From: a virus
Length of the DNA: 21,020 nt
Reading direction: 5' to 3' (one strand)
IMG/VR virus record: IMGVR_UViG_3300047564_000517
Coordinates: 1-21,020 of that record
Part shown: piece by piece, positions 1 to 20,750 of the stretch
Layout: the number at the start of each line of letters is the position of its first letter
How positions within the stretch are numbered: position 1 is the first letter of the stretch
The notes under the pieces: generated by a model
Database searches by the model: none
Told to the model about the DNA's origin: nothing
The model's input: only the letters and a program-made list of their open reading frames with translations
Translations under genes and position numbers: made by a program

Positions 1-479
1 TCTGTCCACTCTACAACGTCCTTAATCCAGGGCTTGAACATCTCATCATCTTCGGTGACACAGATGAGGTAGTTGGTTCCCCGACGAATGATTTTACCAA
101 CCTGTTCGGTCACGACACTTTTGACCCACTCATTCTCCTTGAAGATTTCACCGTTAATGTATTTCTCTCTTAGTACTTTCTGATACTCTTCGTCGGTCTG
201 ATGATTCGGTGGGACTAGAGGTGAAAGTTTGGTTCTATCCTGGTCTGGGTCTCTTCCGGGTCGTTGCCTTTGATTATAAAACTTAAGACGAGTAACACCA
301 TCTACACCAACTTCTGATTCGGCTTCTAGTTCTCTAGTCTTTTTATTATACCACTTCCCGTGCCCATCAGAAACCAACTGCAGTCTCTTGGCATTAAAGA
401 CTGCCATGTTCTTATCCTTTTCAACAAACTCATTTAATGAGTCGTTGGCATCTTTACGGAACTGGGAAAAACGTTTCAT
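1..479 (-). CDS. Cyanophage hypothetical, probably virion-associated protein (3' part cut off)
   Basis: The frame opens with ATG at 479 and runs off the left edge, so about 159 residues are visible. The protein begins MKRFSQFRKDANDSLNEF, then has SDGHGKWYNKKTRELEAE (about residues 37-54), a charged linker with GRDPDQDRTKLSPL, and a conserved-looking block VGKIIRRGTNYLICVTEDDE near residues 130-149. The MKxFxxF opening resembles the capsid-targeting peptide of T4 internal head proteins (family knowledge: MKTYQEFIAEA in T4). I do not recognise an enzymatic domain. A CTAAATAA-like late box lies at about 497-506 and the terminator of the preceding gene at 511-544, so it is probably its own late unit. 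A head or virion role is inference; that it is coding is well supported by the long open frame. Confidence 0.7.
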   Translation of the reverse strand, partial: MKRFSQFRKDANDSLNEFVEKDKNMAVFNAKRLQLVSDGHGKWYNKKTRELEAESEVGVDGVTRLKFYNQRQRPGRDPDQDRTKLSPLVPPNHQTDEEYQKVLREKYINGEIFKENEWVKSVVTEQVGKIIRRGTNYLICVTEDDEMFKPWIKDVVEWT

Positions 480-3096: not shown

Positions 3097-4626
3097 TCAA
3101 TTTTCTGTTTCTTCTTCGTTGCTTTCCTCTGTAAAGATTACATCTGGGGCGCCGTAACTATAAGTTCCCTTTGCAATAACGTCCAGCTTTTCCATTACGT
3201 CAGCCGTAAAGTACTTCTCTGGATTCTTAAGAATGTCGCTTCCATAGATTTTCTTGCCATCCATTTCATAGCGTCCAGCAGACTTTTTCCACAATCCACC
3301 AAGTTCACCAAGTTCAAGTAAACCATAATATCGGTCTAGACCACGCTCATCATAATAAAGACGAACTTGTACTTCCTGATTCTCCTTACTCAAACGAGAT
3401 TTCTGAGTCTTGCAGCGAATAATATTACCAACAACCTCAGTTCCATCCTTCTCCTTAGATTTTGAGAGGTAGATAATAGTTGACGACGAATATTGGAGCC
3501 CACTCCCACCGCTCATTTGCTTTCCACCATAAAGACTCATGGATTCATAAGTGTGGTTTGTCACTAGCATAGGAATCTTAGCCTGACCAAGCTTAAGGGT
3601 CAACATACGGAATGCACCCTTAATCAACTGAGCTTTTGTCATATCGCGAGTATCCTTCTCCGCCAGAGCATCGTTGATTTCTTTATTAGTTGAGAGCATT
3701 CCCAACGAGTCTAGCACAAAGATGCACGGCTTACGGTCTTTCTCCTTTGCTTTCAAGTAAATATCCACAGCCTTAAGAGCTTTGGTCCTAAACTCTTCTA
3801 CAGTAACAACATTAACCACCACAGTACGATTAATATCAACACCACGACTTTCTAAGAGTGACTTGGTGATTGCTGCTTCAGTATCAAAATATAGACAATA
3901 CCCATCTGGATAAGTATCAAGGAAGTTCTTAACAACTGCCAGGCTGAAAAAAGTGTTGTGATGATAGATACCCGACTCGGGACGAGCAATGTACCAGTGC
4001 GGAGCATCAATAGAGATATCATAAACACTCTCGGTGCCAATGTACTCAGTGGATGCCACAGTCTTATCTCCATAAGAACTAGAGACAACAGTGGCATCAG
4101 AAGCTCTTACGGAAGAACCATCAGGACTCATAAAGAGATGGTTGACCGAGCACTCAAAGACATCACCATCAGTGAAGATAACTCGCATAACTTCATTGTT
4201 ATGCTTTGTCACCACTTGATTGATGCGAGTTTGGGCATTAGGAGTAGCAACATAGATTTCATCCTTTACATCATAAGGAACCTCGTGCTCTCCCTTCCCA
4301 TAAAGTCCGTAGAGCTGCTCATAAGTTAGCTCAAGTGACTTGGGGTCTGTGCTGGTGAGTTTTAGCTTCGTCTTGATTTTCTTAAGTGCTGCTGCTGGAC
4401 CATAAATGGTAATCTTTTCGGTCCCACGAGCACACTTGCCAGTTGAGGATTCACCTGCAATAGCAGTAATCTTATTCCCAGAAACCCCACCAAAAATGCT
4501 ACCACTTACAAGGGCATTGAAGATGTAAGAGCCGGTATCAACATAAGTCTCAGATTCATCAATCTGGGATGCGAGTTGTGTATATTCCCCACCGATTTCT
4601 TTTACAATGTCTTTTAAAAAATCCAT
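3097..4626 (-). CDS. uvsX: UvsX RecA-like recombinase interrupted by an intein
   Basis: UvsX coats ssDNA and catalyses the strand invasion that primes recombination-dependent replication in T4-like phages. The precursor is 509 aa; removing residues 65-224 leaves a 349-aa recombinase, close to cyanophage UvsX length and shorter than T4 (391). The Walker A GESSTGK (58-64) is split after Lys64 and resumes with Thr225-Phe-Phe. Walker B is CIFVLDSLGML; the KIPMLVTNHTYESM and QMSGGSGLQYSSS loops are the RecA-type DNA-binding region, and the C-terminus is acidic (EESNEEETEN) as in other UvsX proteins. The ATG lies 2 nt after the 38-aa ORF. A sigma70-type promoter at 4744-4772 probably boosts its expression. 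Activity depends on intein removal because the ATP-binding loop is broken. Confidence 0.95.
   Translation of the reverse strand: MDFLKDIVKEIGGEYTQLASQIDESETYVDTGSYIFNALVSGSIFGGVSGNKITAIAGESSTGKCARGTEKITIYGPAAALKKIKTKLKLTSTDPKSLELTYEQLYGLYGKGEHEVPYDVKDEIYVATPNAQTRINQVVTKHNNEVMRVIFTDGDVFECSVNHLFMSPDGSSVRASDATVVSSSYGDKTVASTEYIGTESVYDISIDAPHWYIARPESGIYHHNTFFSLAVVKNFLDTYPDGYCLYFDTEAAITKSLLESRGVDINRTVVVNVVTVEEFRTKALKAVDIYLKAKEKDRKPCIFVLDSLGMLSTNKEINDALAEKDTRDMTKAQLIKGAFRMLTLKLGQAKIPMLVTNHTYESMSLYGGKQMSGGSGLQYSSSTIIYLSKSKEKDGTEVVGNIIRCKTQKSRLSKENQEVQVRLYYDERGLDRYYGLLELGELGGLWKKSAGRYEMDGKKIYGSDILKNPEKYFTADVMEKLDVIAKGTYSYGAPDVIFTEESNEEETEN
3955..4434 (-). other. Mini-intein in the UvsX Walker A loop (160 aa)
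   Basis: Residues 65-224 of the precursor start with Cys (TGT at 4434-4432) and end with His-His-Asn (AAC at 3957-3955), followed by the +1 extein residue Thr225. The N-terminal block is CARGTEKITI; a block B-like ECSVNHLFMS carries the SxxH pair; block F/G is VYDISIDAPHWYIARP then GIYHHN. There is no LAGLIDADG or HNH motif, so this is an endonuclease-free mini-intein. The segment between the N-block and block B (about 20-80) is Lys- and Tyr-rich and could be a reduced linker. Splicing would rejoin GESSTGK to TFF. Confidence 0.92.
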
Positions 4627-4745: not shown

Positions 4746-4772
4746 TCTAGCATCAAACGAAGAAACTGTCAA
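4744..4772 (-). promoter_or_regulatory. Sigma70-type promoter for uvsX, inside the polymerase 3' end
   Basis: The minus strand has TTGACA (4767-4772), a 17-nt spacer and TAGAAT (4744-4749) preceded by TGC, an extended -10. The -35 lies in the last codons of the polymerase C-terminal cistron and the -10 overlaps the ATG of the 38-aa ORF. The predicted start near 4737 gives uvsX a leader of about 110 nt. Confidence 0.75.
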
Positions 4773-5859
4773 GGGTTGTCCGCTTCTCGGCTGCCCAGCC
4801 AATGGCATTAAGAATAGCCTTAAGTGGCTCTAGAAATCCCTTCTCAAACTGAATGTCATAATCCACATAAGGATTTAGTCCCAGTTCTTTTGGGAACTCT
4901 TGAATAAAGGCCAGAACGTTCTCGTGAATAGGATTTGGCGTTTTAAGGTAGCAGTACTTAATCTTCTCTCCATTTTGAATCAAAGAGTACTTTTGAGTGA
5001 GTTTATTCTGTTTGACAAGATGATTAAAGAGCAGAGCGCCCCTTACGTGCATAGGACAACCTTTCTCATAAATGGTGGTTGGTGATGAGTACTTGACTAC
5101 ATCACTGACTGACCTTGGGAATGAGATTTCTTCTGGAGCGAGTTTGTTAAAGTTGGCTCTGCAGTTTTCAATGAAACGGATCACCTCATCTTCGGTTCCA
5201 CTCATAAGAATCTTGAAGGACTCTTTGAGCATCTTTCTGCACGGGGCCGGGGTTGAAGACTTGATGGCCTCAATGCCCATAATCTTCAGTTTGGGTTCAG
5301 TGTACCTTACTCCCTCACTATCCCAGACATTCATGATGTACCGCTTCTTGGCAGTCCAGATTCCACGGTCTGCAATGTTTTCACGCTTCATTCGCATCTT
5401 CTGCTCAAAAGCGTTGGTATAATCTGCTAGTTCTTGAAAGGACTCGGCAATGTACTTTTCAAGTTCTACCTTACATACCTTATCCAAGAAGTTTACTACT
5501 TGCTCTGTGGTTGGGCTCTTTCCATCAAAGACCTTATCAACTAGGGGTCCAACGTGCAGATAAGCGCCGTCAGTATCCACCGCAATCACATAATCCTTAG
5601 AGCCACTCTTTAGAACTCGGTTCATATACCGATTGAGTTTGTTCTCAATCCAACGAATCGCAACCTGTCCGTAAAGAGTAATGGCCTCGGCATTTTCTAG
5701 TTTATAATGGCGAAAATGGGGATTACCAGCCGAACCATAGCAAGAGTTCAAGCTCACCTTTTTTGCCATCTGGATGTTCTTACAGCGAGAGATTTCCTTT
5801 TTGGTTTTCTTCTGTAGTTCCAGTAGCTCTTTATCACTTAAGTTCTTAAGGTCCATCAT
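4753..5859 (-). CDS. gp43B: DNA polymerase gp43, C-terminal cistron (fingers part, palm, thumb)
   Basis: This 368-aa protein is the second half of a family B DNA polymerase. Motif B is KKVSLNSCYGSAGN with Lys34, Asn38 and Tyr41 at the T4 spacing; motif C is VIAVDTDGAY with Asp95 and Asp97. Ser of the usual DTDS is Gly here. The C-terminal TTLDSFFV is a clamp-binding (PIP-like) tail comparable with T4 gp43's LFDMFDF. The ATG overlaps the stop of the N-terminal cistron as ATGA, and GGGGA lies just upstream as a good Shine-Dalgarno, so this is a real new start, not an assembly frameshift. The break falls in the fingers domain. The two chains must assemble for activity, as reported for split gp43 of some other T4-like phages. 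Combined length is 856 aa against 898 in T4. Confidence 0.93.
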   Translation of the reverse strand: MMDLKNLSDKELLELQKKTKKEISRCKNIQMAKKVSLNSCYGSAGNPHFRHYKLENAEAITLYGQVAIRWIENKLNRYMNRVLKSGSKDYVIAVDTDGAYLHVGPLVDKVFDGKSPTTEQVVNFLDKVCKVELEKYIAESFQELADYTNAFEQKMRMKRENIADRGIWTAKKRYIMNVWDSEGVRYTEPKLKIMGIEAIKSSTPAPCRKMLKESFKILMSGTEDEVIRFIENCRANFNKLAPEEISFPRSVSDVVKYSSPTTIYEKGCPMHVRGALLFNHLVKQNKLTQKYSLIQNGEKIKYCYLKTPNPIHENVLAFIQEFPKELGLNPYVDYDIQFEKGFLEPLKAILNAIGWAAEKRTTLDSFFV

Positions 5860-7322
5860 AGAAGTCCCCGACTCTTCATCTCTTCTTCAATTTGCTCTAA
5901 ATGAGCCTGTTCAGCTAGCATTCGTTTCTTATAAGCCACTCGTTCATTATACATTTTCAACATAAGTTCTGGAAGGATTCCTCGTTTATCCTTACGATAC
6001 ATTGCCCCATTGGGGGCCACTGCATAATCATTATAGGCACTCAAGTCAACCTCTTGATTCAAGATTTTTTCTACAGAGACATTTTGGCAGCGTTCTTCTA
6101 CAAGAGTATCAGGTCCCAGGTTTAATTGCATAATGATATGTGGATACATACTGTCAACGTCTAATGAAACCACCCAATCATAAACCCCTGGGACGGGTTC
6201 TTTGACGTAGGCTCCGGCATACTTATCAGTTCGCTGGGCTGTGCTCTTTGGTGGTACTACAATGTTGCGTTCCTTAAGGTACAGATAGATGATATTATCC
6301 CACATTCTTACCTGATAGAACACATCCTCATAATTCACCTTGGCATCATAAGCCATCGTGAGGGCCAGCTCAATCAGCTTCATCTTATCTTCTAGACGGT
6401 CAACTAGCTCAACGTCAATCACGTTGTAATCAACAAACTTATCCCAGTTACCCCGATAAAAATCTCTAAAGGTCTCAAACTCACTATGGTCCAGTTTCTT
6501 CTGGCCAAGTTCAATCTCGGCAATGTAGTCAAGCCTATAAGATTCCTGAGCCTTATAAGTGAACTTCTTATAAAGCTCAAGGTAATCTAGTTGGCTGATT
6601 CCCACCAAGTCAACCTTAACTTGTTGTCTATTATCAACCATTACTTCGCTGCTGGATACCAACCCCCAAGGTGATAACAGCTTTACGTGTGATTCCCCTA
6701 AAACTCTTAAGACCCGACCAAAGATGTATGGGAGGTCAAAGAACCGTATGTTCCAGCCCGTAATAACATCAGGCGGATTATTAGCCCAGTAGTCCAAAAA
6801 TGAGTTCAATAAGTCCGCCTCATAGGCACACTCAATGTACTCTACATTATCTTGCTTTGGCGTATAAGGTCTTGTACCCCAGGTCTTAATCTTCTTGGTT
6901 ACATTGTCCTGAATGGTAATCAGCAGAATCTCTTCGGCACATACCTTTGGGTCTGGGAATCCGTATTCAGCCTGAGTCTCAATGTCAAGAGTAACAAGTT
7001 TGATTTTTGACATATCAAACTTGATTTCATTGTCAGTATACTTGTCAGAGATGTATTGATAAAGATACCGTTCATAACCATAAATGGTAAAGTTATCAAC
7101 GTCCTCATACTTCTTATACCAATCCCTACAGTCCCTTACAGTACCTGGTTGAATAGGTTCAACAAACTCACCATTTAGAGTCTTATATTCTGTTGGTCGG
7201 TTGGACTTTACGAATAGTGTCGGTTGATATTCCCCCTTATAGGCAACGGGCATTCCGTTCTCATATCCACGGACGAGAAACTTATTCCCGACCAGGGCTA
7301 CATTGGTATAAAAATCACTCAT
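5856..7322 (-). CDS. gp43A: DNA polymerase gp43, N-terminal cistron (exonuclease and palm motif A)
   Basis: This 488-aa protein carries the N-terminal domain, the 3'-5' proofreading exonuclease and the first palm segment of the replicative polymerase. Exo I is TLDIE with Asp113 and Glu115 (T4 Asp112/Glu114), Exo II is ITGWNIRFFDLPY with Asp196, and Exo III is YNVIDVELVDRLED with Asp303. Palm motif A is SLDVDSMYPHIIM with Asp388. All proofreading residues are present. It ends in the fingers helix as YNERVAYKKRMLAEQ, then a charged tail EEEMKSRGLL and a TGA overlapping the next ATG. The start overlaps the stop of the upstream Sm-like gene (ATGA). It has the metal ligand of motif A but lacks motifs B and C, so it cannot polymerise alone; it could in principle act as an exonuclease alone. 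Confidence 0.94.
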   Translation of the reverse strand: MSDFYTNVALVGNKFLVRGYENGMPVAYKGEYQPTLFVKSNRPTEYKTLNGEFVEPIQPGTVRDCRDWYKKYEDVDNFTIYGYERYLYQYISDKYTDNEIKFDMSKIKLVTLDIETQAEYGFPDPKVCAEEILLITIQDNVTKKIKTWGTRPYTPKQDNVEYIECAYEADLLNSFLDYWANNPPDVITGWNIRFFDLPYIFGRVLRVLGESHVKLLSPWGLVSSSEVMVDNRQQVKVDLVGISQLDYLELYKKFTYKAQESYRLDYIAEIELGQKKLDHSEFETFRDFYRGNWDKFVDYNVIDVELVDRLEDKMKLIELALTMAYDAKVNYEDVFYQVRMWDNIIYLYLKERNIVVPPKSTAQRTDKYAGAYVKEPVPGVYDWVVSLDVDSMYPHIIMQLNLGPDTLVEERCQNVSVEKILNQEVDLSAYNDYAVAPNGAMYRKDKRGILPELMLKMYNERVAYKKRMLAEQAHLEQIEEEMKSRGLL

Positions 7323-14119: not shown

Positions 14120-16258
14120 TCATCCCATTATGTATGAGAAGTTCTTCTTTTTGTCAATCCGCATGACACTTTCAAATTTGTCTTCTAAGCCACTCTTATG
14201 AGAAATCACGAACACATTAGCATCCTTAATGACATACCGAATAATCTTCAAGAAGTCTTCGGTGCCAGCAGAATCCAATGAGCTATCAAACACCTCATCA
14301 AAAATAATAAGGTTACAAGATACAGAGTTCTTGAGCTTGGCTACTTCTCTCCAGGCAAACAAGAGTGACAGATTGATTCTAGACTTCTCACCTTCACTGA
14401 ATGAACTATAAGAGAAGTCCTCGTGAATCGGAGACTCAACAGATTCTTCAAAGTTCTCATTGAGTCTAAAGTTGATGTAGAAGTCCATCATCTGTAGATA
14501 ACGGTTAATCTGTTGATTAATAAGAGGTAGATATTTCTTAATAATCTTTGACTTGACTCCGTTGTCTTTCAGTAATAAATAAGCAAAGTCGTGATAATGA
14601 ATCAACTCGTTCTTGGAAGACAAGTCCTCAAACGTCTGGTTCAGACCTTGCTCGTAATCTCTCAGCTTCTCATGTTCAGTATTTCGGTTCTCAAGTTGTT
14701 CGGTAATCTTTTGAATCTCTGACTCAAAATCTTTGATTTGTCTCTGAATACTAGAAATGCGAGTATTGTTCTGAGAGATGTCATTCGTGAGTTTGGTGAT
14801 TTGCCTGGAGAGAGTCAGGAACCGTGATTCTCTGTCTTCCTCAGCCTGAATGGCCTGCTCAAGCTTGGTATAACCATCATGTAGTTCTTTAGCCTTTTGT
14901 TCGGCTTCACTAATCTTATTTAACCGAAACTCCTCGTCAATATCTTGAGTGCAAGTTGGACAAACTGTATTCTCCTTGAAGAACTTATGGTCTCTTGTGA
15001 TGCACGATACCTTTTGAGAAATCTTACCTTTAAGGTTTCCAAGTTCCTTAAGTTTAGCAGCAGCACCTTGAAGAGATTCTAAGTCCTTAGATAGTTCTTC
15101 AATGGATTCCTCTAGAGACTTATTATGAGTCATATAAGACTCAGATTCTTTTAGAAGAGACTCAATCTTTATTTGACGTTGGGCAATGTTTTCTTTACCA
15201 CGATTCTCCAGTTCATCAATAAAGTTCTGTTGCATCTGAACCTTATCTTTGAGAGACTCTTTCTTAAGTTCTAGAGTCCTTATATCGTCTTTGAGTGTCT
15301 TGATTTTTTCTTTGATGATGCTATTCATTGAAGAGAAAATCTTGATGTCCAAGAGGTCCTCAATCACTTCTCTACGGTGAGCCGGAGAGAGTTGCATAAA
15401 GGGAACAAAGTTACTGCTACCGATAATGACGATTTGAGTAAATGCTCTGTAGTTCATCTTCAGAACAGTCTGCTCAAACCATTTCTGTTGGTCAATGGTT
15501 GAGGCAGTCTGGTCAATTAGAGAGCCATTACGATAAATCTCAAAGATGTTTGGCTTTATGCCCCTTCGGACCTTATATTGTGTGGTTCCTATGGTGAACT
15601 CAACTTCAACTAGACAATCCCTCTCATTGATTGAGTTGACAAGTTGAGGTTTATTGATTCCACGGAACGATTTGCCGAACAATGAGAACGTGAGGGCATC
15701 AAGCATTGTGGAATTATGAGACACAATTCCATTAGCATAAAACTCGTGGACATCTGCAACCTGAAGGTCGTAAAGGTCTTCCTTATCGGGCTCAAGAATA
15801 ATCTCCACAATCTTCTCTTTACCGTGTTTGGTAAGAAGAAAGTCATCTCTTAGGTCCTTTGCCTTAACCCAAGTATCGTTTGAAAAGAGGAGGTGGTCGG
15901 GGGATACAGAGATACTCTTACCACTCTCTAGGACAAAGGTTAGTACTTCCGAGTTGCGTGCAGTAATACCAGCAGCTTCAATAGTCTTATACCCAAAGCG
16001 TGTAAGAACTTTAAGTTGACCAACGAGTTCTGGTTGATTGTAATATAAGTCGGCAACTTCTTTTACGGTGAATATTGGCTGCTGAATCGTATGTTCGGTA
16101 CAATACTCAACTTCAATCAAAGTGTTACCGCGCAAACACTTACCTTGGCCATTAGCACCCATCAGACACGTAGTCCTCGCCTTTTTAAAATCAATCTCAG
16201 TGAATTGATTCCCAAAGGACATAAAGTTCTTGAACCTTATCTTCTCAAAGTCAATCAT
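14120..16258 (-). CDS. gp46: Recombination nuclease subunit gp46 (Rad50/SbcC-like) interrupted by an intein
   Basis: gp46 is the SMC-like ATPase of the gp46/gp47 complex that resects DNA ends for recombination-dependent replication. The precursor is 712 aa; without the intein it is 570 aa (T4 560). The N-terminus IRFKNFMSFGNQFTEID and Walker A GANGQGK (34-40) are followed by intein residues 41-182 and then STMLDALTFSLFGKSFRG. Long coiled coils flank a CPTC zinc hook (within NTVCPTCTQDIDEE). The ABC signature is FSEGEKSRINLSLLFAW and Walker B is LIIFDEVFDSSLD. The P-loop Ser is supplied by the residue after the intein, so splicing is needed for activity. It is separated from gp47 by two small genes. 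Confidence 0.95.
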   Translation of the reverse strand: MIDFEKIRFKNFMSFGNQFTEIDFKKARTTCLMGANGQGKCLRGNTLIEVEYCTEHTIQQPIFTVKEVADLYYNQPELVGQLKVLTRFGYKTIEAAGITARNSEVLTFVLESGKSISVSPDHLLFSNDTWVKAKDLRDDFLLTKHGKEKIVEIILEPDKEDLYDLQVADVHEFYANGIVSHNSTMLDALTFSLFGKSFRGINKPQLVNSINERDCLVEVEFTIGTTQYKVRRGIKPNIFEIYRNGSLIDQTASTIDQQKWFEQTVLKMNYRAFTQIVIIGSSNFVPFMQLSPAHRREVIEDLLDIKIFSSMNSIIKEKIKTLKDDIRTLELKKESLKDKVQMQQNFIDELENRGKENIAQRQIKIESLLKESESYMTHNKSLEESIEELSKDLESLQGAAAKLKELGNLKGKISQKVSCITRDHKFFKENTVCPTCTQDIDEEFRLNKISEAEQKAKELHDGYTKLEQAIQAEEDRESRFLTLSRQITKLTNDISQNNTRISSIQRQIKDFESEIQKITEQLENRNTEHEKLRDYEQGLNQTFEDLSSKNELIHYHDFAYLLLKDNGVKSKIIKKYLPLINQQINRYLQMMDFYINFRLNENFEESVESPIHEDFSYSSFSEGEKSRINLSLLFAWREVAKLKNSVSCNLIIFDEVFDSSLDSAGTEDFLKIIRYVIKDANVFVISHKSGLEDKFESVMRIDKKKNFSYIMG
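15713..16138 (-). other. Mini-intein in the gp46 Walker A loop (142 aa)
   Basis: Residues 41-182 start with Cys (TGT at 16138-16136) and end with His-Asn (AAT at 15715-15713), followed by +1 Ser183 (TCC). Block A is CLRGNTLIEV; block B-like is SISVSPDHLLFS; block F/G is LYDLQVADVHEFYANGIVSHN, abbreviated here in two parts around VHEFYA. No endonuclease motif is present and there is no room for one. Insertion is between the Walker A Lys and Ser, the same position as in UvsX, but the two inteins share little sequence outside the splicing blocks. Confidence 0.93.
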
Positions 16259-17817: not shown

Positions 17818-18315
17818 TCAGTACCGGAGCTTGATATGAATGTTCTCCTTGATGGAAGTATAATCCGAATAGTTGGAACCGTCAACCCCTCCGTCATCAG
17901 AGAATACCTCATCAAACCCAGTCTTCTCTAGAATCTTATTTTTGATTTCTAGTTGTCTCTTCTCTTTACCAATTCTACGAATAAAGGCGTAGTGAAGGAT
18001 TTGAGTGAAATATGCAAACGGGTTGCTTGACTTTGCTGGGTCAAAGTTGTGAAGATATTGGATGCAATTCTCAATACCATCACTAATCATATCATCCTTG
18101 AACATATAGTTCGCAAAGTTTGGTTTGTATGAAAGGTGATTAGCCATTTTGAGAATGCACTCCCCAATATAGCGTGGAATGGGTGGTTTTGTCAACCCAT
18201 TGTCTTTGGCTTCTTGAACTTGCTTCCGGTACTCCACCAGAGCAGCCAGAAACTCCTTGTTGTTTACGTAGTGAACTGACCGCTTACGCTTGGTCATTAC
18301 ATCAGTTGAAATCAT
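17818..18315 (-). CDS. gp55: Late-transcription sigma factor gp55
   Basis: gp55 directs host RNA polymerase to TATAAATA-type late promoters, with gp45 as the DNA-tracking activator. This 165-aa protein (T4 185 aa) contains a region-2-like core: PRYIGECILKMANHLSYKPN, MISDGIENCIQYLHNFDPAK and NPFAYFTQILHYAFIRRIGK, the last being the conserved sigma 2 segment. The acidic loop FSDDGGVDGSNYSDYTS lies near the C-terminus. The ATG at 18315 lacks a clear Shine-Dalgarno; an in-frame ATG is 18 nt downstream. A promoter at 18346-18374 lies directly upstream. Two AATAAATA boxes in this window are likely targets. Confidence 0.92.
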   Translation of the reverse strand: MISTDVMTKRKRSVHYVNNKEFLAALVEYRKQVQEAKDNGLTKPPIPRYIGECILKMANHLSYKPNFANYMFKDDMISDGIENCIQYLHNFDPAKSSNPFAYFTQILHYAFIRRIGKEKRQLEIKNKILEKTGFDEVFSDDGGVDGSNYSDYTSIKENIHIKLRY

Positions 18316-18345: not shown

Positions 18346-18374
18346 ATTCTAGCACACTTCTGTTGACTTGTCAA
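18346..18374 (-). promoter_or_regulatory. Sigma70-type promoter of the gp55-gp47-gp46 operon
   Basis: TTGACA (18369-18374), 17-nt spacer, TAGAAT (18346-18351) preceded by TGC on the minus strand. The TAG of the -10 box is also the stop codon of the methyltransferase-like gene. The predicted start is about 25 nt before the gp55 ATG. Confidence 0.87.
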
Positions 18375-19215
18375 GCAGTCTTGAATCTAGGTTCTTGTCG
18401 TGGTAGTCATTCAGCAAATAGTTAATCTCTTGAATAGAAAGTGCCTCCACAAAAGCCACGTTATTATAGAATCTTGAAAAGTCTACATTCATAAGAGCAT
18501 CAAGAACCCAATCATTATTTAACTTAAGAAACATTTGAGTTGTATTAGGCACCCTAGGAAATTCAGTTTTAACTTTACCACAACCTCTACCAAAAATGGT
18601 TAAAGACACATCAGCTTTATCTGGAGAAGTCTTTGTGATGTATTTTCTATCTTCAACGGAAATTTTCTTCCGTTTGTATTCTCGTTTTTCCCAAACTTGA
18701 AAAATAGTATTTAACTTACCCTTAGATTTTTTATCTGTATCATTATCGTAAATAAAATCCACATCTAAATCTAGGTCTTCAATCAAATGAAATCTTAAAT
18801 CTAACCTATTAATAACAGTCCACTTTCTCCAAGATTTAGGTACAAGAAATCCAATGTAATCAGATACTGTGGCACACTTATTAAAAAATGGAACGGATAA
18901 CTTATTCGCCCTACCAAATGGGGGGTTTGTCAGGGTAACACAATTTTTTAAGTTACCCAAGTCTTCATTCAAAAAATCTAGGGTGGGTTTAACTCTGGGA
19001 TGTTTTGGATCAATATCGTAAGAAATAATGTTTGAATAACCATTGGTTTGTATTACGTCAATAAAAGAGCCAGTCCCTCCTGCTGGCTCAAGCCAAACAA
19101 TGTTTTTATCAGAAGGTAAACGAGAAGCTATAGTATCAAAACAAATCTTAGCGGTGTTTGGTGGAGTGTAATATTGCTCCTTTCCAGTTACCCTTTTATT
19201 TTGTTTTTTGGTCAT
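18349..19215 (-). CDS. SAM-dependent DNA methyltransferase-like protein
   Basis: This 288-aa protein has N6-adenine-type methyltransferase motifs in gamma-like order: QYYTPPNTA at 14-22 (cofactor-edge motif X-like), motif I LEPAGGTGS at 42-50, acidic SAM-ribose residue in YDIDP at 66-70, and catalytic motif IV NPPFG at 97-101. After motif IV there are FLVPKSW and a C-terminal half (about 160-288) without an obvious known recognition domain. It is short for a complete restriction-type enzyme, so it could be an orphan methylase protecting phage DNA or a protein/RNA-modifying relative. It has its own promoter and looks more AT-rich than the core genes beside it (by eye), consistent with acquisition. 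It lies between gp55 and uvsW, where core genes are usually nearby. Confidence 0.85.
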   Translation of the reverse strand: MTKKQNKRVTGKEQYYTPPNTAKICFDTIASRLPSDKNIVWLEPAGGTGSFIDVIQTNGYSNIISYDIDPKHPRVKPTLDFLNEDLGNLKNCVTLTNPPFGRANKLSVPFFNKCATVSDYIGFLVPKSWRKWTVINRLDLRFHLIEDLDLDVDFIYDNDTDKKSKGKLNTIFQVWEKREYKRKKISVEDRKYITKTSPDKADVSLTIFGRGCGKVKTEFPRVPNTTQMFLKLNNDWVLDALMNVDFSRFYNNVAFVEALSIQEINYLLNDYHDKNLDSRLLDKSTEVC

Positions 19216-19240
19216 ACTGAGTCTAGTCTTGGTTATTCAT

Positions 19241-19269
19241 ATCTTAACACACTTCTGAAATCTTGTCAA
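19241..19269 (-). promoter_or_regulatory. Sigma70-type promoter of the methyltransferase-like gene
   Basis: TTGACA (19264-19269), 17-nt spacer, TAAGAT (19241-19246) with TGT before it, on the minus strand. The -35 context GGGGTTGACAAG is identical to that of the divergent plus-strand promoter at 19348. The leader to ATG 19215 is about 20 nt. Confidence 0.85.
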
Positions 19270-19332
19270 CCCCTTAAGACTCATAAGGGTTCTAATGGGC
19301 TCTGAAGGACCAATTGTGTCGAAATGTTAACC

Positions 19333-19366
19333 GTTTCAGGTAGGGGGTTGACAAGGGGTCTGAAAC
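19333..19366. promoter_or_regulatory. Inverted repeat around the plus-strand promoter -35
   Basis: GTTTCAG (19333-19339) and CTGAAAC (19360-19366) are perfect 7-bp inverted arms, 20 nt apart, that bracket the -35 box at 19348-19353 and enter the spacer. This is the layout of an operator for a dimeric repressor, but it could be chance. The interval between the two divergent promoters (19270-19332) shows no gene. Confidence 0.4.
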
Positions 19367-19376
19367 CATGTATAAT
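19348..19376 (+). promoter_or_regulatory. Perfect-consensus sigma70 promoter reading into the repeat region
   Basis: TTGACA (19348-19353), 17-nt spacer and TATAAT (19371-19376), matching the bacterial consensus at all 12 positions. Transcription should start near 19383 and cross about 300 nt with no ORF before the terminase-like gene at 19680. Confidence 0.9.
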
Positions 19377-19485
19377 CAGCTTTGTCTGGTTGCAACGGGT
19401 TATTATATCTAGATTACTTTAGAGTACTTAGATAACTCTAGATAACCTTTAGAGTACTCTAGAAAACCTTTAGAACCTTAAGAAC

Positions 19486-19501
19486 TCTAGAGTACTCTAG
19501 A
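19486..19501. repeat. 16-bp perfect palindrome TCTAGAGTACTCTAGA
   Basis: The 16 bases are identical to their reverse complement and contain two XbaI-type TCTAGA sites around GTAC. It lies within the CTAG-rich region and partly overlaps one copy of the ACTCTAGATAA repeat. Confidence 0.8.
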
Positions 19502-19526
19502 TAATACCTAAAGAACAATAAACCTA

Positions 19527-19577
19527 AACTCTAGATAAGTTCCGAAGGAACAATCCCGAAGGGATTTATCTAGAGTT
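19527..19577 (+). ncRNA. Perfect three-way junction with two GAA-capped hairpins
   Basis: Outer arms AACTCTAGATAA (19527-19538) and TTATCTAGAGTT (19566-19577) pair over 12 bp without mismatch. Inside are GTTCC-GAA-GGAAC (19539-19551) and ATCCC-GAA-GGGAT (19553-19565), two 5-bp stems with C(GAA)G triloops and one linking A. Such triloops are known to be unusually stable in both DNA and RNA. All 51 bases except the two loops and the linker are paired. The strand is given for the plus promoter, but the fold is symmetric and could form on either strand or as a cruciform. Confidence 0.7.
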
Positions 19578-19626
19578 CCTTAAGAACCCCTAATGTCCAC
19601 TATGTAGCTCTCCTAGATAACAGGGC

Positions 19627-19655
19627 TTGACAGAATCCTAGAACTGCGCTAAGAT
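19627..19655 (+). promoter_or_regulatory. Sigma70-type promoter of the terminase-like gene
   Basis: TTGACA (19627-19632), 17-nt spacer, TAAGAT (19650-19655). The predicted start is about 18 nt before the ATG at 19680. Only a weak AGG lies at a Shine-Dalgarno-like distance. Confidence 0.8.
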
Positions 19656-19679
19656 ACTCCCAACTCAAATAGGCATATT

Positions 19680-20378
19680 ATGGAACCCATAGAATTCATC
19701 AACAATCATCTAAAGTATAACTCACCCATTAATGGTCCAAAAAACTTTAAACTATACCCCTTTCAAGAAGAACTAGTAAATAAGTTTCACAATAGACAAA
19801 ACAATATTTTTTGTAGCTCTCGTCAAAGTGGAAAAACTATTGTACCTCTTTATTATCTGCTTCATCAAGCTCTATTCAATCCAGAGTCAAACATTCTGAT
19901 TTTGAGTAATAAAAGCTCTATATCCTCATCACACATTGATACTATTCAGTATGCGACTAAAGGTATTGTAGAGCCCTGGCCTATGAATCCTCCATCAAGA
20001 ACTTCTAACACACTAAGGTTTCATAATGGCTCAACGATTCATTCGGATTCATCTGTAAATCCTGCCTCTCTAACTGGCAGACTTTATACTCACATTTTCC
20101 TTGATGAGTTTGCTTTTCTCCATTATGAGGAAGCTAATGAAGTCTGGAATCGTTTATATTACTTGTACTCAGATGCAAAAGTTATTATTGGTAGCACTAA
20201 GAATGATGGAAGTTTTTTCAATGAACTTCTGATAAGTTCAGCCCAAGGTTATGCAAAACTTTTTGCCAGTGTTTATGATTGGTACTTTGTTCCTGGTAGA
20301 GATAAAAAGTGGAAAGAACAAACTATCAATATGATTGGTTCTGATGCATTTGATCGTGAGTATCAAATGTCCCTATGA
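19680..20378 (+). CDS. Terminase large-subunit ATPase domain only (gp17-like, truncated)
   Basis: This 232-aa protein matches the packaging ATPase of T4-like terminases: an adenine-binding-type YPFQEELVNKF at about 27-37, Walker A SSRQSGKT at 46-53 (T4 SRQLGKT), Walker B IFLDEFAF at about 138-145 with the catalytic Glu, and coupling motif IIGSTKND at about 168-175. It ends DREYQMSL, where T4 gp17 continues as EHTAAFEGT into the nuclease domain, which is wholly absent. The N-terminal region before the ATPase is also shorter than in T4. It is the only plus-strand gene, and its last codon and stop overlap the 3' end of the convergent 20373-20750 gene by 6 nt. It could be a decayed gp17 copy or a free-standing ATPase. 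The full-length gp17 is presumably elsewhere. Confidence 0.85.
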   Translation: MEPIEFINNHLKYNSPINGPKNFKLYPFQEELVNKFHNRQNNIFCSSRQSGKTIVPLYYLLHQALFNPESNILILSNKSSISSSHIDTIQYATKGIVEPWPMNPPSRTSNTLRFHNGSTIHSDSSVNPASLTGRLYTHIFLDEFAFLHYEEANEVWNRLYYLYSDAKVIIGSTKNDGSFFNELLISSAQGYAKLFASVYDWYFVPGRDKKWKEQTINMIGSDAFDREYQMSL

Positions 20379-20750
20379 GTCTCTCCAAATCTTTTCCAAC
20401 AACTCCTTTGCATCGCGAACATTCGCCAAGTATCCCATCTTTCTTGAAACACTAGGTCTTCTTTGCTTAAAATCATCAGCCTTTCTCAAATAAGACTGAT
20501 ATAACATAATCATCTCAACATCAGTATTTTCTGTCATTGTCACAACATCCTCCATACTGATAATAAACATATCATCAGTAGTTGTCTTCATCCAGGGTTC
20601 AATTTTATACCCTTTACCTTCATAAGTCTCAATCTTGATTGGATTGGTCACCATCAAGTTCAAGACTCCGTTATCCTCATCAGCCATTACCCGAGCAAAA
20701 ATCTCCTCACCAGTTCTAAGTTTTATTGACGCATAAAAATCTTCTTCCAT
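20373..20750 (-). CDS. Sm-like small beta-barrel protein, copy 3 (next to uvsW)
   Basis: This 125-aa protein begins MEEDFYASIKLRTGEEIFAR, has NPIKIETYEGKGYKIEPWM, MFIISMEDVVTMTE and a helical C-terminus (IMLYQSYLRKADDFKQ to AKELLEKIWRDS). IKLRTGEEIxAxV, NPxxxE, a conserved Trp and VVTMT correspond to the two Sm-like proteins beside gp43. The C-terminal helix pair is extra. The ATG follows the uvsW stop directly (TGAATG) and GGAGG in the uvsW end is its Shine-Dalgarno. The stop overlaps the convergent terminase-like gene. RNA or DNA binding is an inference from the fold pattern. Confidence 0.78.
   Translation of the reverse strand: MEEDFYASIKLRTGEEIFARVMADEDNGVLNLMVTNPIKIETYEGKGYKIEPWMKTTTDDMFIISMEDVVTMTENTDVEMIMLYQSYLRKADDFKQRRPSVSRKMGYLANVRDAKELLEKIWRDS

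Follow-up and report, generated by a model that had tools for sequence, protein, structure and literature searches.

Positions 19527 to 19577 of the window, the 21,020-nt stretch of DNA analyzed here, raise the question of what a perfectly paired three-way junction contributes to a gene-free part of a phage genome. Its genes, among them gp55, gp46/47-like genes, uvsX, and gp43, identify the window as part of a T4-like cyanophage genome.

The three-way junction and its surroundings

Direct reading of the junction revealed the order AACTCTAGATAA / GTTCC-GAA-GGAAC / A / ATCCC-GAA-GGGAT / TTATCTAGAGTT, which spans 51 nt. Its stems of 12, 5, and 5 bp are all Watson-Crick paired, and the linker is 1 base. 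The outer stem consists of a 12-bp 5' arm (19527 to 19538) and 3' arm (19566 to 19577), and it encloses hairpin 1 (19539 to 19551) and hairpin 2 (19553 to 19565), all on the plus strand. Hairpin 2 would grow to 6 bp (19552 to 19566) if the outer stem opened. The original prediction of a perfect 12/5/5-bp junction with a single linking base was thereby confirmed. Its further claim that the junction exceeds chance expectation also held, since a search for perfect junctions returned 1 in the window and 0 in 60 random 21-kb sequences with the same dinucleotide make-up. Folding of both strands as DNA returned exactly the junction at 19527 to 19577 (z about -5). Folding of the junction region as RNA gave a 17-bp hairpin as the minimum free energy structure (-25.2 kcal/mol versus -22.0 kcal/mol for the three-way junction), and the junction is therefore outranked as an RNA fold.

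The element had been described as none of the known riboswitches, terminators, or tRNA-like elements, and the searches agree. ARAGORN detected no tRNA or tmRNA, and a terminator scan of 19500 to 19620 detected neither a terminator-like site nor a T-run after the junction. Identity as an intrinsic terminator was ruled out because no U-run directly follows the stems in the window or in relatives. At the gathering score, no Rfam 15 family matched the window, any of 10 gp55 loci, or the helicase-locus copies described below; sub-threshold matches were weak microRNA noise in the spacer only. Comparison of the window's intergenic region with phage records revealed chance-level similarity only (TCTAGA repeats; terminal repeat, Citrobacter phage CR8).

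The region around the junction proved to be the gene-free island that had been claimed, extending over 19216 to 19679 from a minus-strand methylase open reading frame (ORF) to a plus-strand terminase-like ORF. The late sigma factor gene gp55 (17818 to 18315, minus strand; phrog_234, E 5e-69) is the left neighbor of the hairpin locus in relatives. Inserted between gp55 and the promoter at 19348 is a DNA methyltransferase-like gene assigned by profile match to phrog_5172 (18349 to 19215, minus strand). This methylase gene is absent from the relatives' gp55-phrog_471 gap, and its nearest named relatives, which are about 30% identical, belong to enterobacterial myoviruses. The ORF at 19680 to 20378 (plus strand) encodes the ATPase domain only of a terminase large subunit (Terminase_6N, E 9e-14; phrog_5989, E 1e-25). 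It has its own promoter at 19627 to 19655, is about 35% identical to cyanophage gp17, and ends flush with the phrog_471 stop codon; it is best described as a diverged stand-alone copy and not as a fresh fragment. The gene phrog_471 (Sm-like, "methylamine utilization"; 20373 to 20750, minus strand) lies downstream of uvsW and is the right neighbor of the hairpins in relatives, in which the methylase and terminase-ATPase ORFs are both missing from the gp55/phrog_471 locus.

Three further genes of the window showed unusual structures. A probable mini-intein lies inside the P-loop of gp46 (14120 to 16258, minus strand), where the intein C-terminal model scored above the cut-off. Another probable mini-intein lies in the P-loop of uvsX (3097 to 4626, minus strand; weak intein match, GESSTGK-C...HN-TFFS). 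The DNA polymerase gene gp43 (4753 to 7322, minus strand) is split into overlapping ORFs (5856 to 7322 and 4753 to 5859), each of which matches part of the family B profile.

Conservation of the twin hairpins

Two gp55 searches yielded 158 loci, whose gp55/phrog_471 gaps were compared. When the twin hairpins were searched for as exact sequence, the matches were L001, a contig nearly identical to the window, and a single phage that clearly differs from it (L002, the same contig as L151), whose gap reads GTTCCGAAGGAAC-C-ATCCCGAAGGGAT and lacks the outer stem. Back-to-back hairpins were present in the gap of about 23 distinct gp55 rows, window included. The gaps fell into a compact class, mostly about 95 to 140 nt, without hairpins and an extended class of 175 to 310 nt with tandem hairpins; the exception was L157, which has the extended length and no hairpins. 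In nearly all island-free extended gaps, the end of hairpin 2 lies 0 to 26 nt from the phrog_471 stop codon. On the gp55 tree, the bearers cluster in one region with a few apparent losses (L125/L127, L133, and L159) and one outlying bearer (L151), and 5 changes of hairpin gain or loss were counted versus 21.6 in shuffles. Phages L125, L127, L133, and L159 belong to the same clade and have no hairpins, which indicates that the hairpins are dispensable there. Locus L165 carries a second, inverted twin-GAA unit (3689 to 3726) immediately 3' of the phrog_471 stop codon, with the GAA loops on the phrog_471 mRNA strand, so that each of two converging transcripts would end in twin hairpins of its own. 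A covariance-model search detected at most one clear twin-hairpin copy in each genome or contig scanned. No twin hairpins were found in the named phage isolates of the collection, and a host search for gp55 relatives in prokaryote genome contigs returned none. The loose pattern CCGAAGG-N5-12-CCGAAGG was dropped because it matched mostly unrelated contigs, and the matches in L287 and L291 were dropped as single hairpins within other sequence.

The outer stem is present only in the window phage and in L001. A counterpart was sought in 19 relatives and found in none, no flanking stem being clearly above shuffled flanks, and the outer stem was rejected as a conserved feature for this reason. Its 5' arm 12-mer AACTCTAGATAA recurs at 19434 to 19445, inside the repeat array of the AT-rich spacer (19404 to 19526, plus strand; TCTAGA/TTTAGAGTACTCTAGA repeats). 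The TCTAGA/GTACTCTAGA array at about 19404 to 19505 folds into its own larger branched hairpin (19406 to 19503; -36.4 kcal/mol, z -6.2, as RNA), which stands upstream of the junction. The repeat content indicates that the 12-bp outer stem was built locally from TCTAGA repeats, and the junction is thus a conserved core with a local elaboration around it. The original proposal that the whole three-way junction is the functional unit was therefore not supported; the conserved part is the twin hairpin.

Covariation, the check proposed for the fold, was detected for both C(GAA)G hairpins in a 17-row alignment. All 197 pair cells were Watson-Crick, a percentage inflated by the choice of rows for having hairpins, and two-sided changes occurred in 8 of the 12 pairs (34 cells). 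The covariation score was 0.48, compared to 0.14 for shuffled and at most 0.10 for slid alignments. None of the 197 cells contained a G-U pair, which would be unusual if RNA structure alone were selected. The stem of hairpin 1 appears among relatives as GTTCC, GTTTCC, ATTTCC, TTCTC, or TTTTC and that of hairpin 2 as ATCCC, ATCAC, GTTCCC, GTTTCC, or GTTTTTCC, always paired, and the loops are retained while the stem letters vary. A C(GNA)G loop caps hairpin 2 in 19 of 19 distinct rows of alignment A3 and likewise in all three copies at the helicase locus, always on the strand matching the plus orientation of the window, which is the transcript strand. The loop of hairpin 1 is looser (GAA, GTA, or AAA; divergent forms TTTA, GTTA, GATA, or TTC). 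The twin hairpins thus combine the covarying stems and conserved loops expected of a structured RNA. Except for that of the window, the full-length predicted RNAs show unremarkable stability (z about -1.2 to -1.6), and the structure signal is therefore confined to the twin hairpins. A long-range pairing of CUUUG in the leader with UAAAG 3' of hairpin 2 was too patchy to claim (6 of 27 by script versus 1.9 expected, with L425 and L426 mis-scored and showing the pairing by eye).

A divergent promoter and a second genomic context

Analysis of the sequence upstream of the hairpins confirmed the predicted consensus promoter at 19348, a sigma-70-type promoter TTGACA-17-TATAAT (19348 to 19376, plus strand) with a 12/12 consensus match, directed away from gp55 and toward the hairpins. 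It is followed by the leader box CAGCTTTGTCTGGTTGCAACGGGT (19377 to 19400, plus strand), which lies at the expected transcript start and is the window form of nnCYTTGTnnnGnnTGA, a consensus taken from an alignment of the -10/+40 regions from 87 distinct relatives. The layout shared by the gp55/phrog_471 gaps is TTGACA-16..18-TANNAT-nn-CYTTGT-nn-GGTTTGAAGA, with variants. Of 123 distinct gaps, 101 contained the strict promoter-leader pattern, against 0 in the reversed control and 0 on the gp55-sense strand. Among the 22 misses, 20 have the promoter by eye with another box letter, and the gap of L252 is incomplete; the remaining miss is the window, in which the promoter is displaced behind the methylase gene. 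The divergent promoter was also found in P-SSM2 (L205), in L206, in SynMITS9220M01, and, with a GGTTTGT box, in S-SRM01; it is therefore not restricted to hairpin-bearing phages. As read from the sequence, divergent promoter and leader are present in essentially all examined gp55 loci, with hairpins or without. In compact gaps, the predicted divergent transcript would enter phrog_471 and uvsW antisense directly. A literature search of cyanophage transcriptomes and origins returned nothing on the gp55/phrog_471 locus and left the divergent promoter unaccounted for.

The same promoter, with the leader CTTTGTnnGGTTTGAAGA or near variants, was observed before various early genes (L301, L302, L303, L325, L350, L366, and L371). 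By their distribution, promoter and 5' leader represent a widespread cyanophage early class.

Alignment of the window's promoter-leader-spacer region gave the best scores with L165, L168, L181 to L184, and L190 (36 to 44; shuffles at most 27). Scores with the siblings of the window by gp55, L125 to L138, were 16 to 24 and within the shuffle range. Because leader and spacer are akin to a clade other than that of gp55, the island probably brought the unit in from another clade, or the unit has recombined.

A second context was found ahead of a gene for an SF2 helicase (phrog_16), where promoter, leader, AT-rich spacer, and twin GAA hairpins occur in the same order on three contigs (L286/L425, L426, and L427). 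gp55 was sought on these contigs and is absent. The spacer is shared largely word for word between L427 at the helicase locus and L165 at the gp55 locus. About 20 to 60 nt beyond the hairpins stands a canonical terminator (AAGGACT..AGTCCTTTTTT, AAGAACC..GGTTCTTTTTTT, and AGGAACC..GGTTCTTTTC), and the next gene runs in the same direction. The presence of a separate terminator indicates that the twin hairpins are not themselves the terminator. The promoter is present at both loci and a terminator at the helicase locus; neither the gp55 locus nor the window yielded a terminator. With this helicase context, a discrete non-coding RNA becomes likely. In the hairpin-free L327 and L355, a promoter and leader are followed about 75 nt on by a terminator hairpin, upstream of a helicase-like gene; this arrangement, seemingly in the same place, is possibly a short RNA at the helicase locus.

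A candidate small early RNA and competing explanations

The reading that we favor, to which we give roughly even chances, is that a clade of T4-like cyanophages makes a small early non-coding RNA in which the twin hairpins are the structured domain near the 3' end. Transcription of an RNA from the 19348 promoter had been among the original proposals; it stands as the best-supported reading because promoter and leader are conserved and because the second genomic context is closed by a canonical terminator, and what did not stand is the junction as the unit of that RNA. Promoter, leader box, twin hairpins with their covariation, and the two contexts with the terminator of the second were all read directly from the DNA; from these we infer that an RNA is made and is stable. 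A host-type sigma-70 RNA polymerase would initiate at the 19348 promoter and produce an RNA whose length at the gp55 locus is predicted as about 200 nt, comprising the leader box, the AT-rich spacer, and a stacked pair of palindromic hairpins, each with a C(GNA)G triloop. The hairpins would form cotranscriptionally, guard the RNA against 3' exonucleases, and display an identical loop pair to a putative binding partner, a phage or host protein. Protection and partner together would allow a stable untranslated RNA to accumulate early in infection. Inspection of a set of predicted transcript sequences revealed no conserved ORF, and the spacer sequence is not conserved among relatives.

Features of the locus also recall a replication origin of the type of T4 oriF/ori(uvsY), primed by transcription through an R-loop, a reading that we regard as being on the unlikely side. 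T4 oriF and oriG consist of a promoter with a downstream AT-rich unwinding element of no fixed sequence, and UvsW dissolves the R-loops of T4 origins (PMC3016281). By a comparison of layout only, the cyanophage unit is similar to oriF/ori(uvsY) and oriG in its promoter and AT-rich stretch near uvsY/uvsW, but the paired conserved hairpins are a feature of its own. The transcript would invade the AT-rich spacer, which would serve for unwinding, and on the displaced strand two C(GAA)G DNA hairpins of high stability would form and mark or load the primosome; that displaced-strand twin C(GNA)G hairpins load a primosome, beside a helicase that dissolves origin R-loops, we likewise hold to be on the unlikely side. 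The position at the uvsY-uvsW-phrog_471-gp55 boundary is consistent with an origin, given that UvsW unwinds T4 origin R-loops (PMC3016281), as are the GNA loops on the strand that would be displaced, the lack of G-U pairs, which suits DNA-level selection, the junction as the best fold of the DNA, and the number of roughly one copy per genome. The arrangement of a conserved promoter ahead of an AT-rich spacer whose sequence varies points weakly the same way, since AT-rich gaps are common. However, the canonical terminator of the helicase locus and the mRNA-end unit of L165 suit an RNA module better, and most marine relatives keep the promoter without spacer or hairpins. Third-position GC skew along one 159-kb contig changed sign about 6 kb from the locus and also elsewhere.

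The closeness of hairpin 2 to the phrog_471 stop codon and the one twin unit per converging transcript in L165 would fit a 3'-end barrier where antisense transcription from the divergent promoter meets the uvsW-phrog_471 mRNA, with the hairpins stopping, trimming, or protecting the two transcripts and so curbing antisense interference with uvsW. Against such a barrier, which seems on balance improbable, a U-tract is absent on both sides although these phages have UUCG/GAAA tetraloop hairpins followed by T-runs at other sites, the helicase locus pairs the hairpins with a true terminator and a codirectional next gene, and marine phages with the same promoter manage without hairpins. That the three-way junction itself serves as a cruciform or as a packaging or recombination site is very improbable: its perfection, far above chance in the window, and its rank as the best DNA fold would favor it, but all diverged relatives lack the outer stem, and the best RNA fold is a different one. 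Hardly credible is an origin of the hairpins as neutral palindromes perfected from near-palindromes by strand-switching replication in T4-like phages. Polymerase template switching at inverted repeats has been described for T4, strict Watson-Crick pairing without G-U fits templated correction, and the TCTAGA array of the window displays palindrome growth; yet the conserved GNA loops, the constant hairpin pair, the fixed place after the promoter, and the second context with its terminator would be left unexplained.

As a small early RNA, the unit is a new candidate family of phage structured RNA, with no match in Rfam. High stability is a property of C(GNA)G mini-hairpins, d(GCGAAGC) among them, and the cyanophage hairpins share their loop and closing pair; d(GCGAAGC), however, is a structural motif and no functional family, whereas the cyanophage hairpins are paired, conserved, and linked to a promoter. 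The intercistronic C(UUCG)G hairpins of T4 are also stable and short, lie between phage genes, and are thought to affect mRNA stability; in contrast, the cyanophage unit has GNA triloops and two hairpins in tandem at one locus. Intrinsic terminators likewise place GC-containing hairpins at transcript ends, but the twin hairpins have triloops and no U-tract, and the true terminators of the helicase locus are separate and downstream. Structured or antisense RNAs reported from T4-like cyanophages are CfrI, PhotoRC-II, and wcaG (PMC9964418). These are also short structured elements in cyanomyovirus genomes, and CfrI is an antisense RNA as well; the present unit differs in its twin GNA triloop hairpins, its location at the gp55-phrog_471 or helicase leader locus, and its lack of an Rfam match.

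T4-like cyanophages are among the most abundant aquatic viruses, and few non-coding elements have been described for them. The twin hairpins define a candidate RNA family that is supported by covariation, can be sought with a search model, and occurs in two genomic contexts. Nearly all such phages carry a strong conserved promoter that points away from the late sigma factor gene and is antisense to uvsW. If the reading as an early regulatory RNA or as an origin is true, the element would fill a gap in the timing of replication and late expression of these phages.
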